Below are positions 9,498 to 35,259 of a stretch of DNA of 35,259 nucleotides, piece by piece; within the stretch, counting starts at the first letter, position 1, and the number at the start of each line of letters is the position of its first letter. The stretch covers positions 1 to 35,259 of IMG/VR virus record IMGVR_UViG_3300019776_001126. One strand, written 5' to 3'. A program made the position numbers and the translations under genes. The notes beneath the pieces are model-generated. The model saw only the letters and a program-made list of their open reading frames with translations. It was not told the DNA's origin and ran no database searches. Origin of the DNA: a virus.

Positions 9498-9739
9498 TAT
9501 CGAATTGCAGACAAGGTTTTAAGTAAATTGACAAATAGCACCTCAAGCTTATTGTCGATTGATTGTTCAATAATTTTTTTGTTAAAATCTCGAAGAAAAA
9601 GAGCCTCCTGTGCCAGTCGAACGAACTCTTGTTCGCTCAACTGGTAGGGGTTTAATTTGAATGATTCTCTGATGAGCGCTCCAACCTTTCTGATCTCGTC
9701 TAAGCCGTCTTCAGTATTAATGAGGTTAGAGCTTACAGC
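9497..9739 (-). CDS. Tail assembly chaperone, -1 frameshift extension (gpT-like part)
   Basis: This stretch has no start codon of its own but is open in the -1 frame relative to the upstream chaperone gene. It encodes 80 residues beginning AVSSNLINTEDGLDEIRKVG, continuing through KLNPYQLSEQEFVRLAQEAL, and ends with a TAA overlapping the tape-measure ATG. Usable -1 overlap is short: the -1 frame is closed by a TAG shortly upstream and the 0 frame stops at 9733-9735. Only GGAAAAG (9745-9739, read GTG GAA AAG) looks slippery in that interval. The predicted fusion is about 303 residues. A frameshifted chaperone pair before the tape measure is the norm for long-tailed phages (lambda G/GT, P2 E/E'). 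Confidence 0.82.
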   Translation of the reverse strand, partial: AVSSNLINTEDGLDEIRKVGALIRESFKLNPYQLSEQEFVRLAQEALFLRDFNKKIIEQSIDNKLEVLFVNLLKTLSAIR

Positions 9740-10407
9740 TTTTCCACCTGTGAGACAAACGTTCTAAAGATTGCGTTTGCTACTAAATAGATAGATAACA
9801 AGATTTCATCATCATCAGTCGTTTTCAGGATCTCATCACAAGTGATCAAGCACTCTTGCCAATAGATCATTCCTGATGTGGCAAAGTCTGATCCTGTAGA
9901 AGCCTTTTCAAAATCCATCAATTCAGGCTTGAAAAGGTAGGCTTCGGCTTTTGTTTCTTTTCCTTCAGCATCAACTGATAATACAACTGTCAACTTTCTC
10001 AATTCACCTGCAGCTCTAACACGAGCAATCGCATCAGCTGTTATGCTTGGATTATTCAACAGATTCACAACCGTTTCATTATCTACTGATAAGTACTCCA
10101 TGCGTGTTGTTTTTAACTGGAAGATGTAACCCATTTTGGTTGCTGCTGATTTGAGCAATTCAGGATCCGTTTTAATCCTTTCATCGCCTTCCAACCAACA
10201 ATCCATTAGTTGAGACTTTCCTGTTAAAAAATCATCATCACCTCCGATTTTTGCTGACGAAGTAATGTCGAGCATATTTGGGTGTCGAACGATACAAAAG
10301 ATATCTGGTCGAAACTGATCAGGGGTGATTTTGTGAATTTGTTTGAATTCTTTTTTCCATTGTGCAATTTTTGCTGCAGATGGCATCTTGATAGTTGAGT
10401 GTGACAT
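9733..10407 (-). CDS. Tail assembly chaperone (gpG-like, 0-frame product)
   Basis: Protein of 224 residues between tail tube and tape measure, the fixed place of the tail chaperone that coats the tape measure during tube assembly. Sequence shows WKKEFKQIHKITPD near the start, a mixed alpha/beta middle, and ends FVSQVEKL. I assign the role from position and from the -1 frame that continues from its last codons to the tape-measure start. Long for a chaperone of this kind, but Bacteroidota Mu-like phages carry versions of similar size as far as I recall. The 0-frame product should be the abundant one. Confidence 0.75.
   Translation of the reverse strand: MSHSTIKMPSAAKIAQWKKEFKQIHKITPDQFRPDIFCIVRHPNMLDITSSAKIGGDDDFLTGKSQLMDCWLEGDERIKTDPELLKSAATKMGYIFQLKTTRMEYLSVDNETVVNLLNNPSITADAIARVRAAGELRKLTVVLSVDAEGKETKAEAYLFKPELMDFEKASTGSDFATSGMIYWQECLITCDEILKTTDDDEILLSIYLVANAIFRTFVSQVEKL
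9739..9745 (-). promoter_or_regulatory. Probable -1 frameshift site in the tail chaperone gene
   Basis: Read on the minus strand, the heptamer G GAA AAG lies in the 0 frame (GTG GAA AAG CTG TAA), two codons before the stop. A -1 slip re-pairs the lysine tRNA perfectly on AAA, while the P-site GAA to GGA pairing is imperfect, so this is a weaker site than lambda's GGGAAAG. It is the only plausible slip site between the closing -1 TAG upstream and the 0-frame TAA. I see no strong stem just downstream; only a weak AGCT/AGCT pairing. Confidence 0.6.
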
Positions 10408-17924: not shown

Positions 17925-18389
17925 ATGACAGTCTTAGAAATTGAAGATGTTTTAGCACTTATCGAACAAGATGTGCTTGATGATATAACAGGAGGAGATA
18001 ATACGCTCCTAGACAAAGCAGAACTATCAGCGCTTGGTGAAATTACAGGATATCTCAATATCCGATATGATGCAGCAAAGTGTCTTGATCGAACAATGAT
18101 TGCTGTTCCTGCAATTGTTCCACCAGCAACAGAACCAGCACACCAAGGTTACAATGGTATTTCAACTGTCCTGGAAAAACTTACAGATGTGATGTTGTAT
18201 AATTTACATACACGCATTATGCCTGATAACATCCCAACACTTCGCCAAACTCGCTACGAGAATGCGATAACTTGGTTTGAAAAGGTCGCAGATGGTTTTA
18301 TTGCTCCAGCGCTGCCGATTAAAACAGAAGATCCAACTACACCACTTCGTTACGGTAATTCATCAACTCCACAAAATCCCTATTATTAA
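17925..18389 (+). CDS. Head-tail connector protein, DUF1320/Mu gp36-like
   Basis: Protein of 154 residues. The start (VLEIEDVLALIEQDVLDDIT, then LLDKAELSALGEITGYLNIRYD) has the acidic helical start and the YLxxRYD motif of DUF1320 proteins, such as Mu gp36. These are small helical adaptor proteins beneath the portal. It lies between terminase and portal, two bases from each; in Mu, gp36 follows the coat gene, so its location is shuffled here along with the whole head block. The C-terminal 50 residues are Pro/Thr rich and probably extended. Confidence 0.72.
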   Translation: MTVLEIEDVLALIEQDVLDDITGGDNTLLDKAELSALGEITGYLNIRYDAAKCLDRTMIAVPAIVPPATEPAHQGYNGISTVLEKLTDVMLYNLHTRIMPDNIPTLRQTRYENAITWFEKVADGFIAPALPIKTEDPTTPLRYGNSSTPQNPYY

Positions 18390-18391
18390 TT

Positions 18392-19630
18392 ATGGCAAAT
18401 GCTTATAAACAAACTGGAATTGGTTTCAAAAGCCAAGGTGCAACTGTAAAAACAGAACGTCCAAACCGCCTTGCATTAACTCAATTTGTCGCATCTCAAC
18501 AGCAACGAGGTAGACAAATGATTAACGACTGGTTAAAAGCACTTCAAGCGGCTGAAAATCCCGAAAAACCGAACCGTGAACAATTGTATAAATTGTATCA
18601 TAATTTATTAATGGATGCCGATTTAACAGCTGAATGGGAAACGCGAAGAAAGTTGCGTGTTGTTGGTGCTGGATTTAATTTATACGACAGCAACAATAAG
18701 CCTGTTGAGGAGGCCACAAAGCTATTAGAACAAAAATGGTTCATGGATATCATCAACCATGCTTTTGACTCCAAATTATTAGGTCATTCATTGATTGAGG
18801 TTAAATCAATTACTGCAGATGGATTGATCGGTGACGTTTCATTAATTAACCGCCGATTCGTTATTCCTGAAAAAGGGATTCATGTAACCAAAATTGGTGA
18901 TGAAAAAGGTGTCTTGTATCGTGAGGATCCAATCTATGCTCCTTGGATTTTTGAATTTGGTGAATCCAACGATTTTGGATTGTTGGCGAAGGCTGCACCT
19001 TATATCTTATTCCTTCGTTTTGCACTTGCTGCTTGGAGTGAGTATGCAGAGAAATTTGTAATGCCTGTTCGTGTGGGGAAAACCAATACGAAAGATAAAG
19101 AATCATTGAACCGATTGGATAGTATGATGCTTGACATGGCAACAGCTTCTTATGCAATCCTGGATAAAGATGAAGAATTTGATTTCATTGAAACATCAAA
19201 AACGGATGGATCCAATGTATTTGATAAGTTGATCACAACGTGTGCTGGTAAATTATCAAAGCTTATCAATGGAGCAGTGATCGGTGAGGGAACCAACGGC
19301 GGTTCCAATGCAAAGGAGCAAGTTGGACAAGATATGCAAGATCTTGTTACGAATGCTGATATGATGTGGTTCGAGGGCATCATGAACCAAGAGTTAATCC
19401 CACGATTGGCATTGATGGGATATCCATTCACTGATCTAACATTCAAGTTCAATCGATTGGATGATTTACAATCAGAATTAAAAATTGTTACTGGTTTGCT
19501 GGAGTATTACGATATTCCTGAAAACGAGATCACTGACAAGTTTGGATGGTCTGTTACGAAAAAAGAAACGCCACAACCTGGTAAGGACAAAAAAATACAG
19601 GCAAACAGCGCTGGTAGTTTTTTCGAATAA
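18392..19630 (+). CDS. Portal protein, DUF935 (Mu gp29-like)
   Basis: Protein of 412 residues. It forms the dodecameric ring through which DNA enters and leaves the head. Typical DUF935 stretches are present: LYHNLLMDADLTAEWETRRK, NHAFDSKLLGHSLIEVKS, LRFALAAWSEYAEKFVMPVRVG, NGAVIGEGTNGGSNAKEQVG and the C-terminal MNQELIPRLALMGYPF. It is somewhat shorter than Mu gp29. The gene ends ...AGT TTT TTC GAA TAA, a slippery heptamer followed by a hairpin, so a minority of ribosomes should continue into the -1 frame and make a portal-MuF fusion. The C-terminal residues 390-412 are Lys/Gln/Ser rich and look like a flexible linker. Confidence 0.92.
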   Translation: MANAYKQTGIGFKSQGATVKTERPNRLALTQFVASQQQRGRQMINDWLKALQAAENPEKPNREQLYKLYHNLLMDADLTAEWETRRKLRVVGAGFNLYDSNNKPVEEATKLLEQKWFMDIINHAFDSKLLGHSLIEVKSITADGLIGDVSLINRRFVIPEKGIHVTKIGDEKGVLYREDPIYAPWIFEFGESNDFGLLAKAAPYILFLRFALAAWSEYAEKFVMPVRVGKTNTKDKESLNRLDSMMLDMATASYAILDKDEEFDFIETSKTDGSNVFDKLITTCAGKLSKLINGAVIGEGTNGGSNAKEQVGQDMQDLVTNADMMWFEGIMNQELIPRLALMGYPFTDLTFKFNRLDDLQSELKIVTGLLEYYDIPENEITDKFGWSVTKKETPQPGKDKKIQANSAGSFFE

Positions 19631-19649
19631 GCCCCGGAACATTCGGGGC
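19618..19649 (+). promoter_or_regulatory. Programmed -1 frameshift signal joining portal and MuF
   Basis: The slippery heptamer T TTT TTC (19618-19624) is in the portal reading frame and matches the X XXY YYZ rule exactly. A 6-nt spacer containing the portal stop (GAATAA) is followed by a 6-bp all-GC stem with 7-nt loop, GCCCCGGAACATTCGGGGC (19631-19649). The -1 frame is closed by TAG at 19615-19617, immediately before the slip site, and is open from there to 20937, with no ATG before the MuF domain. The slip gives ...SFF-RISPGTFGAK... and then MuF. All three elements of a bacterial -1 frameshift cassette are present in standard spacing. Confidence 0.82.
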
Positions 19650-20940
19650 AAAACTAACAGAACATTACTCAAATATATTGGGTAAGGATGTTAGCACATT
19701 TCAAGCTGCTGCAGTATTGAGTGAATCTGATATCGATAAGATCCTAAAAGACATCTTTAACGGTTCGGAAGAAATACCTGAAGAATTATTTCAGGCAACT
19801 TACAAGCACTTAGCTGAAGGAGTAACAAATGGTTATGGTGATATTTCAACTCCTTCAGATGCAATGATGGTTTATCAACTAAAGAACAATGTTGCTGTGT
19901 TTTCTGCTTTCAAAGCAAATCATTACGGAAATACAATGCGCACATTGCTTGTTGATGAAAACGATAAAAAACGCACCTGGGGAGAGTTCAAGAAAGTTGC
20001 AAATGAAATAGATCCAAAATATAATCAGTTGTGGTTGGCCGCTGAATACAACTTGGCAACACGTCAGGCTCGTAGCGCCGAACAGTGGCAGAATTTCAAG
20101 CGAGATCAGGACGTATATCCTAATTTAGAATGGACACCTTCTCGTAGCGCGAATCCACGTGAACCACATATGAAATATTATGGTCTAATTTTGCCAATCA
20201 ATCATCCGTTTTGGGATGTTGCCATGCCTCCTTTCGGTTGGGGTTGTATGTGTGGATTAAAGCAAACTAGATCCGAAACAACTGAAAAGGACATCGAAAT
20301 GCCGGATCCTATTCCTGGCATTGAAGGCAACGCTGGAAAAAGTGGACGTGTGTTCTCAGCTTCTCATGCATTTGTTACTGCAGTCAAGAAAGAGGATAAG
20401 GCAGCAGTTCAAGCAGCACTTAATAAATACAAATCGAATCTTGATGATGTGATTGTGTACAAGGTTGGTAAAAACGCAGTGAGTATTCCTGTAAATGCTC
20501 ATGCCGATGATCTAATCGAAAATGTATTGTATTTAACACCATTTGTAAAAAAGTACAAACAAGATTATGCATTGCGATCACATATTGAAACAGGAATTAA
20601 AGGGGACACTAATCCTGAACTTCAAAAAGGTAAAGCTACTGGTGATTTAACAACATACAGTACTGCAAAAGACATCTATTCCTATATCAAAACTAATTGG
20701 AAAGATAAATACAGCATTCAGATGAAGAAGTTTGATGATGTATTTGTTGCATTTGATTTTAACGGAAAACTTACCGACAAAAATTACTCTTTGATGTGGA
20801 GAGCGCTTTATGGAGAAATGGTGAGTGCTGATAGAGTTCAATTTGTGCTCTTGAAAAATGGAGACAAGGTATATAAGATCAACAAAAAGAACTTGGATGG
20901 AAAAGCAGAACTAGCTAAAATCAAAAAGGAGCTACTATAA
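19624..20940 (+). CDS. MuF minor head protein, made as -1 frameshift fusion to portal; extra C-terminal domain
   Basis: MuF/gp30-type minor head protein, 438 residues in the -1 frame after the slip site. There is no ATG start; the first possible independent start is a TTG at 19678 (420 residues), so the fusion to portal is the preferred reading (about 849 residues in all). Residues are counted from that TTG. The MuF core covers about 30-200, with the family signature NHPFWDVAMPPFGWGCMCGLKQ at 175-196. A further domain at about 250-420 (NPELQKGKATGDLTTY, IKTNWKDKYSIQMKK, DDVFVAFDF) is not needed for MuF function. Extra C-terminal domains in MuF proteins are often toxins or nucleases (PBECR types); that is a family-level inference, and I see no certain catalytic set. 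A terminator overlaps the stop. Confidence 0.85.
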   Translation, partial: RISPGTFGAKLTEHYSNILGKDVSTFQAAAVLSESDIDKILKDIFNGSEEIPEELFQATYKHLAEGVTNGYGDISTPSDAMMVYQLKNNVAVFSAFKANHYGNTMRTLLVDENDKKRTWGEFKKVANEIDPKYNQLWLAAEYNLATRQARSAEQWQNFKRDQDVYPNLEWTPSRSANPREPHMKYYGLILPINHPFWDVAMPPFGWGCMCGLKQTRSETTEKDIEMPDPIPGIEGNAGKSGRVFSASHAFVTAVKKEDKAAVQAALNKYKSNLDDVIVYKVGKNAVSIPVNAHADDLIENVLYLTPFVKKYKQDYALRSHIETGIKGDTNPELQKGKATGDLTTYSTAKDIYSYIKTNWKDKYSIQMKKFDDVFVAFDFNGKLTDKNYSLMWRALYGEMVSADRVQFVLLKNGDKVYKINKKNLDGKAELAKIKKELL

Positions 20941-34757: not shown

Positions 34758-34809
34758 CGGCAAATTAAGCGTGTTTCTGTTCGACGGATTCACCGAATCG
34801 AAGAGAATT

Positions 34810-35259
34810 ATGAAGAGAATCATTGAATACAGAAAGTTATTTAACGTAACACGAGAAGCCAACCTAGCTGATTTAAAAAAAGTTTACCGCAATTTGGTAA
34901 AAGAATGGCATCCAGATAAATTTCAAGATGGTGATCCAAAAAAAGAAGAGGCTGAATTGAAAAGTCAAGAAATCATTGAAGCGTATTCTTTCCTTGTAAG
35001 TATTTCTCCTGAAACACATGCATTAACAAAAGATGAATACACGGAAGTGATCAATACAGAAATGATTGAAGATTTTCAATACAAAGGAATGGCGCTTAAA
35101 ATCACCTTCCAAAACGGAAATGTTTACGAATACTTCAATGTTCAACCGAGCGTTTACAACAAAATGCGCAGCACTCCAACTTTAGAGCGTTTCGCGCGAC
35201 GCCATGTTCTTTCATCTTACACATTCAGAAAGGTGATGAATACTAAAGGAGACAACTAA
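34810..35259 (+). CDS. J-domain (DnaJ) and KTSC domain protein, probably host
   Basis: Protein of 149 residues from ATG at 34810; an upstream GTG (34771) adds no conserved sequence. Residues 3-65 are a J domain with the HPD motif at 34-36 (KEWHPDKF), the Hsp70-stimulating element. Residues 88-142 form a KTSC domain (ALKITFQNGNVYEYFNVQPS, STPTLERFARRHVLSSYTFR), a small domain often found alone or at the end of lysyl-tRNA synthetases. Fusion of J and KTSC domains suggests an Hsp70 co-chaperone. The gene has its own promoter and no phage neighbours, so it marks the host side of the insertion. Confidence 0.88.
   Translation: MKRIIEYRKLFNVTREANLADLKKVYRNLVKEWHPDKFQDGDPKKEEAELKSQEIIEAYSFLVSISPETHALTKDEYTEVINTEMIEDFQYKGMALKITFQNGNVYEYFNVQPSVYNKMRSTPTLERFARRHVLSSYTFRKVMNTKGDN

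Follow-up and report, generated by a model that had tools for sequence, protein, structure and literature searches.

In the cellular replication gene dnaX (tau/gamma), a -1 slip at A AAA AAG with a 3' stem-loop gives one complex both its long and its short protein. The arrangement is reported in both polarities, and an efficiency near 50% lets a change of 1 nt reverse the roles of the two frames (Atkins et al. 2016, PMC5009743, available text). In phages, -1 frameshifting joins adjacent structural genes in the tail assembly chaperones (lambda G/GT; SPP1 17.5/17.5*), which lie between the tail tube and tape measure genes; a putative -1 site with the heptamer UUUUUUC is given for SPP1 17.5 in the available text of PMC6316719. 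The MuF domain is encoded beside the portal, both in SPP1 gp7 and Mu gp30, separate proteins that bind non-covalently, and in the MuF polymorphic toxins, including Bxa of Bacteroides stercoris, which combine a MuF N-terminal part with a variable toxin C-terminal part. Here we analyse IMG/VR virus record IMGVR_UViG_3300019776_001126 (positions 1 to 35,259; this whole stretch of 35,259 nt is the window), in which a Mu-type portal gene and a MuF frame meet at a site with features of both frameshift systems. The site differs from that of dnaX in belonging to a phage virion gene pair and in using, here and in most relatives, T TTT TTC, the same heptamer as SPP1 17.5. It differs from the chaperone sites in lying between head portal and MuF, not between the major tail and tape measure genes.

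Our reading, which from the comparisons below we put at a probability of about 0.93, is that programmed -1 ribosomal frameshifting yields both portal and portal-MuF from one gene, and mixed portal rings. We infer that in cells ribosomes on the portal mRNA reach T TTT TTC and are held by the hairpin 6 nt downstream. One share would end the 412-aa portal at TAA; the remaining ribosomes would slip back one base, with tRNA-Phe re-pairing from TTT-TTC to TTT-TTT, and read on into MuF to give an 849-aa fusion. Fused and plain subunits would have the portal domain in common and should therefore assemble together into mixed rings, and the frameshift ratio would thereby set the MuF dose per head. MuF would then be a covalent part of some portal subunits, unlike gp7 and gp30. 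The MuF toxins are described as genes of their own in the available text of PMC11699363 and PMC5576092, whereas in the phages studied here we read such proteins as portal extensions; the word 'frameshift' does not occur in the main text of either paper. Portal and MuF share one gene in Microbacterium EA3/EA5/EA8 and EB phages (PMC7302621, whose available text ties frameshifting only to tail chaperones). We found no description of portal-MuF frameshifting in the open-access literature searched, and a prior mention elsewhere is possible.

The layout of the junction (Table 1) bore out nearly all that the first-pass annotation had read from the DNA letters. The last codons of the portal gene (AGT TTT TTC GAA TAA) contain T TTT TTC in frame, followed by a 6-nt spacer with the portal stop and by a GC hairpin (GCCCCG GAACATT CGGGGC). 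In the MuF frame a TAG stands immediately 5' of the slip site; from there the frame is open to 20937, with its stop at 20938-20940, and its first ATG, GTG or TTG is the TTG at 19678. The statement that this frame has no ATG held for the N-terminal part and failed further in, where in-frame ATGs occur from 19864 onward. The predicted fusion, joined at SFF|RISPG, has a computed mass of 96.0 kDa, in agreement with the band expected near 95 kDa. The portal scored 207.9 bits against PF06074 (cut-off 23.9). The MuF match to PF04233 (E 3.8e-6, 28.1 bits) was slightly below the 29.6 cut-off, which a close relative, L002, passed with 37.4; the window MuF also matched phrog_19194 (E 2.7e-54) and the minor head protein phrog_220 (E 1.2e-20).

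The slip signal is real and above chance. Like a -1 frameshift site it combines an X XXY YYZ heptamer in the 0 frame of the upstream gene, a stable structure within 5-8 nt downstream (here a 6-nt spacer and an 8-bp stem) and a downstream frame that is open and under coding constraint across the slip site. Folding of 19625-19665 put the free energy of the hairpin (8-bp stem, 3-nt loop) at -14.1 kcal/mol (z -5.86), a stability reached by none of 200 shuffles. With more flank (19610-19660) the same stem lay within a longer pairing (z -3.76), and 1 of 200 shuffles was equally stable. T6C alone is common, with 18 occurrences on both strands of the window vs 27.4 per shuffle; the combination of T6C with a GC stem at the observed spacing is present at one place in the window, and 100 dinucleotide-preserving shuffles gave none. 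We rejected a sequencing or assembly error in the T run, as the same frame arrangement recurs in L002, L003 and L204 and in 112 portal clusters. An intrinsic terminator was rejected by eye, there being no run of at least 4 T directly after the stem on either strand.

Relatives were gathered through portal peptides or protein similarity, independently of the junction; the scan kept the best 80 of 374 candidates, and 15 loci (L004-L018) were picked by hand from hit lists. Among 209 anchored portals (the window and L002-L209), 11 ran off the contig, and the 198 with a stop formed 126 clusters at ~90% nucleotide identity. An in-frame T TTT TTC (111) or T TTT TTT (1) with an open -1 frame was found in 112 of the 126. 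These include Hankyphage (L004), other gut phages, Elizabethkingia phage TCUEAP3 (L015) and loci in genomes of Bacteroides, Phocaeicola, Prevotella, Parabacteroides and Alistipes. L002, L204 and L003, with portals 74%, 65% and 62% identical to that of the window, agree with it in heptamer, spacer length, stem and change of frame, and the cassette was also found in relatives with portals only 20-32% identical. With four additions from a phylum-wide sample (below), the slip-bearing clusters gave 116 representatives, in all of which the -1 frame is MuF by a leave-half-out profile. The heptamer is specific to the junction: FF codon pairs there are spelt T TTT TTC in 115 of the 116 portal genes (T TTT TTT in the other), vs 0 of 30 FF pairs elsewhere in these genes.

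The stem covaries. Over 119 junctions, 93.6% of stem cells were paired vs 83.2% in shuffles, and cells changed on both sides numbered 75 vs 21.6; sliding the partner arm by 1-3 columns lowered pairing to 41-59%. In an alignment-free test, the 5' arm matched its own 3' arm at 7 or more of 8 positions in 75 of 116 standard junctions, vs 656 of 2320 pairings with other junctions and 92 of 805 with other places. A search for the signal only (TTTTTTCG-N5-GCCCC) in 119 genomes of one genus found 37 places in 23 genomes, vs 3 for the reversed control. Thirty loci were examined, giving 20 standard portal-MuF junctions, 2 swapped ones (see below) and 8 unrelated places; two of the genomes, G001 and G002, were already known to carry a junction.

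Coding constraint in the -1 frame begins before any MuF start codon. Between its last upstream stop and the slip site, the MuF frame has no ATG in 115 of 116 representatives and no possible start of any kind in 105. In the stretch ahead of any start codon, substitutions at -1-frame codon positions 1/2/3 numbered 61/33/104 over 15 usable pairs, which share sequences and are not 15 independent tests. From the slip site to 19678 the window differs from L002 at 2/2/5 and from L204 at 6/4/12 of these positions. Since most representatives lack an upstream start, the constrained stretch must be entered from the portal.

A second group of relatives has the two frames swapped. Four Porphyromonas gingivalis phage records and a prophage-like locus of Bacteroides clarus encode portal and MuF in a single frame of 852-855 aa, and yet retain T TTT TTC, spacer and stem; the -1 frame soon stops. 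Single-gene fusion is shared with the Microbacterium phages above. A scan seeded with two of the swapped-frame loci kept the best 80 of 127 candidates, comprising 57 swapped, 9 standard, 8 fused without a T heptamer (5 with an A-run) and 6 unusable or other loci. The swapped arrangement was found in 38 distinct portal clusters, a count that includes the earlier fused loci (the clusters of L012 and L052 are also counted among the exceptions below); L123, with heptamer TTTTTTA and no GCCCC stem after it, was dropped. MuF was in frame 0 by profile in 38 of 38, and the heptamer was T TTT TTC in 37 and T TTT TTT in 1. All 228 stem cells were paired, with 12 double changes vs 1.5 expected, at the outer and inner pairs. 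The own 3' arm matched in 19 of 38, vs 158 of 760 pairings with other junctions and 31 of 266 with other places. The -1 frame ran for 8-32 codons in the 38; runs of at most 32 codons were also seen at 79.8% of control positions, which gives a naive chance of 2e-4 that all 38 stay within this limit.

On one portal tree of 197 tips, parsimony required six switches of polarity among 161 T-type tips, and the nodes joining both polarities had supports of about 0.6 to 1.0. As in dnaX, the long product is thus in the 0 frame in some relatives and in the -1 frame in others, with the same signal. Slipping would produce the fusion in the standard form and the plain portal in the swapped one. By analogy with dnaX, the two polarities suggest a ratio of portal to portal-MuF near 1:1. 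The first-pass annotation had called the fusion a minority product; the fusion stands, and 'minority' goes beyond the evidence.

For the swapped-frame phages alone, the fusion might instead be constitutive, with heptamer and stem as functionless leftovers. In its favour, nothing interrupts the fused frame, the -1 stop does not come unusually early (median 22 codons vs 12 for controls) and T TTT TTC also spells 3 of the 22 FF pairs found away from the junction in swapped genes. We consider this unlikely, given the fully paired stem with its compensatory changes and the heptamer kept in 38 clusters; each of the six parsimony switches would also require an untouched vestige.

Beside the stop distance and FF spelling of the swapped genes, further observations count against frameshifting as we read it. 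RNAalifold gave no consensus structure on alignment A6, so pairs were counted for the named structure and by the alignment-free arm test. The ungapped comparison of the window with L003, probably out of register, shows no codon-position skew (9/9/9). Fourteen of the 126 clusters are exceptions: two have a separate MuF (L010, L011), five are fused in frame 0 (L012, L013, L048, L052, L123; L012 and L052 retain the signal), two have MuF in +1 (L121, L122), two have A-runs (L007, L014) and three are partial or unrelated (L112, L207, L209). Single members also break the pattern within their clusters, L042 with MuF in +1, and L193 and L087 with a broken portal frame. Possible MuF starts are frequent as well. 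In the 55 Hankyphage-type representatives, where the portal stop falls 43-58 nt past the beginning of the slip site, 33 have one inside the overlap (17 GTG, 14 ATG, 2 TTG), 17 of these at +42. Among the 61 representatives of the other type, 29 offer a potential start codon no more than 60 nt from the slip site (an ATG in 6), and in 33 the first ATG lies 120-160 nt downstream.

The +1 exceptions L121 and L122 are two distinct phages whose portal 3' ends carry CCTTTTTTCG, read as CTT TTT TCG in the portal frame; MuF there is in +1 (or -2).

The overlap starts would suit an alternative in which the slip motif is incidental and coupled re-initiation yields a separate MuF protein. Its start codon would be TTG 19678 in the window and one close to the portal stop in Hankyphage-type phages. 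Deposited MuF starts do fall downstream of the slip site or A-run: in Hankyphage (L004, 3043) at an ATG inside the end of the portal gene, and in Peternella (L007, 3010) at a GTG 98 nt past the portal stop. We nonetheless regard this as very improbable. In ungapped comparison the window's TTG reads TTA in L002, GTT in L204 and GGC in L003, and as a main route it was rejected for this lack of conservation. Downstream, possible starts share an alignment column in at most 54 of 114 representatives (best earlier columns, 45 of 101 and 44 of 100). At the position of the Hankyphage ATG the 55 representatives read GTA (18), ATG (11), GTG (9), CTG (7) and others. The coding constraint precedes any start codon, and stem and heptamer persist even where the frames are swapped.

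Frameshifting to a C-terminal extension of the portal, as first proposed, is supported by conserved motif, spacer and stem and by the unconserved start. The condition named in advance as fatal to it, a MuF ATG conserved among relatives that lack a conserved slip site, had the opposite outcome in 112 of 126 clusters. In the proposal that MuF is made 'only, or mainly' in this way, 'only' goes too far in view of the overlap starts in the Hankyphage-type group, where re-initiation may supply extra free MuF beside frameshifting.

Some portal-MuF junctions have slip motifs other than the T heptamer. In 395 Bacteroidota genomes searched by profile, PF06074 was present at 53 places in 44 genomes, of which 49 places were examined and four fragments left out. 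MuF lay downstream at 27 of the 49, with a slip motif and MuF in -1 at 14, separate at 12 and fused at 1. The 14 slip cases comprised 5 T-type (one being the seed genome L225), 1 A AAT TTT (L234, with the same spacer and stem), 7 A-type and 1 G GGA AAG (L231, by eye). At the 12 places with a separate MuF, the gene had its own potential start and the end of the portal carried no A or T homopolymer heptamer. At 22 of the 49 places no MuF was found; most MuFs used to train the profile were slip-bearing, so the count of separate MuFs may be too low. Separate MuF genes were also found in Rhodobacter RC1 and Ochrobactrum POA1180. As some relatives have a separate MuF gene, the mechanism would be lineage-specific.

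A-type portals (A AAA AAG) end on A9G or A10G, then one codon and the stop. The -1 frame is open in L345, L346, L348-L351, L353-L357, L235, L239, L246-L249 and L258 (L353 ends too soon to show the frame). Judged by their sequence, these portal ends form another class of slip site at the portal-MuF boundary. The distance from the portal stop to the first in-frame MuF start is 333 nt in L345, L346 and L348 and 81-126 nt in L350, L351, L354 and L355; in L349 no start was found within 400 nt. Two large gut phages, L262 and L263 (99.8 and 111.7 kb), have portals that end on A AAT TTT with an open -1 frame and, by eye, inverted repeats downstream; in L263 the -1 frame is the annotated MuF frame.

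Homopolymer runs raise a further alternative, that RNA polymerase slips on the six T (or on A9 in other lineages) and makes frame-shifted mRNAs. Runs of 9 A or T slip in transcription (Atkins et al. 2016, PMC5009743, available text), and A-type junctions have A9 or A10. A run of six T is short for this, however, and the hairpin 6 nt 3' of the run has the spacing of a ribosomal stimulator (5-8 nt; PMC4066793, available text); presumably it would not yet have formed while the polymerase was on the run. In L234, A AAT TTT stands in place of the T run, with spacer and stem unchanged. We give transcriptional slippage even less credence than a separate start, while for the A9 lineages it is open as an alternative.

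Table 1. Features at the portal-MuF junction of the window
Feature	Position	Strand	Basis
gp36-like adaptor gene, directly 5' of portal	17925-18389	+	PF07030, E 1.3e-8
Portal gene, Mu-type, 412 aa, 0-frame product	18392-19630	+	PF06074, E 3.4e-61
TAG ending the MuF (-1) frame immediately 5' of the slip site	19615-19617	+	Sequence
Slippery heptamer T TTT TTC, portal frame	19618-19624	+	Sequence
6-nt spacer GAATAA with portal stop codon	19625-19630	+	Sequence and alignment A6
Predicted stimulatory hairpin, 8-bp stem, 3-nt loop	19631-19649	+	Fold z -5.86; compensatory changes in relatives
MuF open frame, -1 vs portal, 440 codons counted from slip site	19618-20940	+	Translation
MuF domain core inside -1 product	20035-20256	+	PF04233, phrog_19194, phrog_220
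First possible separate MuF start, TTG	19678-19680	+	Sequence; not conserved

Elsewhere in the window, a 224-aa open reading frame (ORF; 9733-10407, - strand) occupies the tail chaperone position before the tape measure gene. At about 9498-9745 (-) a second frame, in -1, overlaps the end of this ORF and reaches the start of the tape measure gene, perhaps a second, conventional frameshift of the G/GT type. An ORF at the right edge of the record (34771-35259, +) looks by eye like a J-domain protein and is perhaps host DNA or a cargo gene.

MuF proteins are located at the portal (PMC5576092, available text). The likely role of the arrangement is to fix the number of MuF units that ride on the ring and would enter with the DNA. 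A domain scan of the C-terminal part of the window MuF found no family above threshold and no recognisable toxin domain. Some relatives do have a toxin domain on MuF: among 18 MuF proteins or fragments scanned, five have Gln_amidase (L004, L026, L373, L389, L398; L026 and L373 look like the same or very similar phage), three have LPD3 and two have a CdiA_C match below cut-off.

More broadly, we give about even odds to the proposal that a conserved cassette, found across Mu-like phages of Bacteroidota, determines the proportions of plain portal and portal-MuF in one ring. Some six switches of polarity would have passed without loss since the efficiency would be about one half and only the ratio would matter, and where MuF carries a toxin domain, the ribosome would set the dose of toxin tethered at the DNA gate of the virion. 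The swapped-frame phages would then be a natural experiment on frameshift efficiency maintained by selection.

Textbook portal rings consist of identical subunits. If frameshifting operates as we propose, the rings of these phages would be hetero-oligomers, and a large group of gut and environmental phages, including Hankyphage, would build rings from two kinds of subunit in a ratio set by the ribosome. This would explain how low-copy MuF gets placed at the portal, and portal stoichiometry would become directly testable. The MuF-toxin genes of this group may also be annotated without their true N-terminus, the portal.

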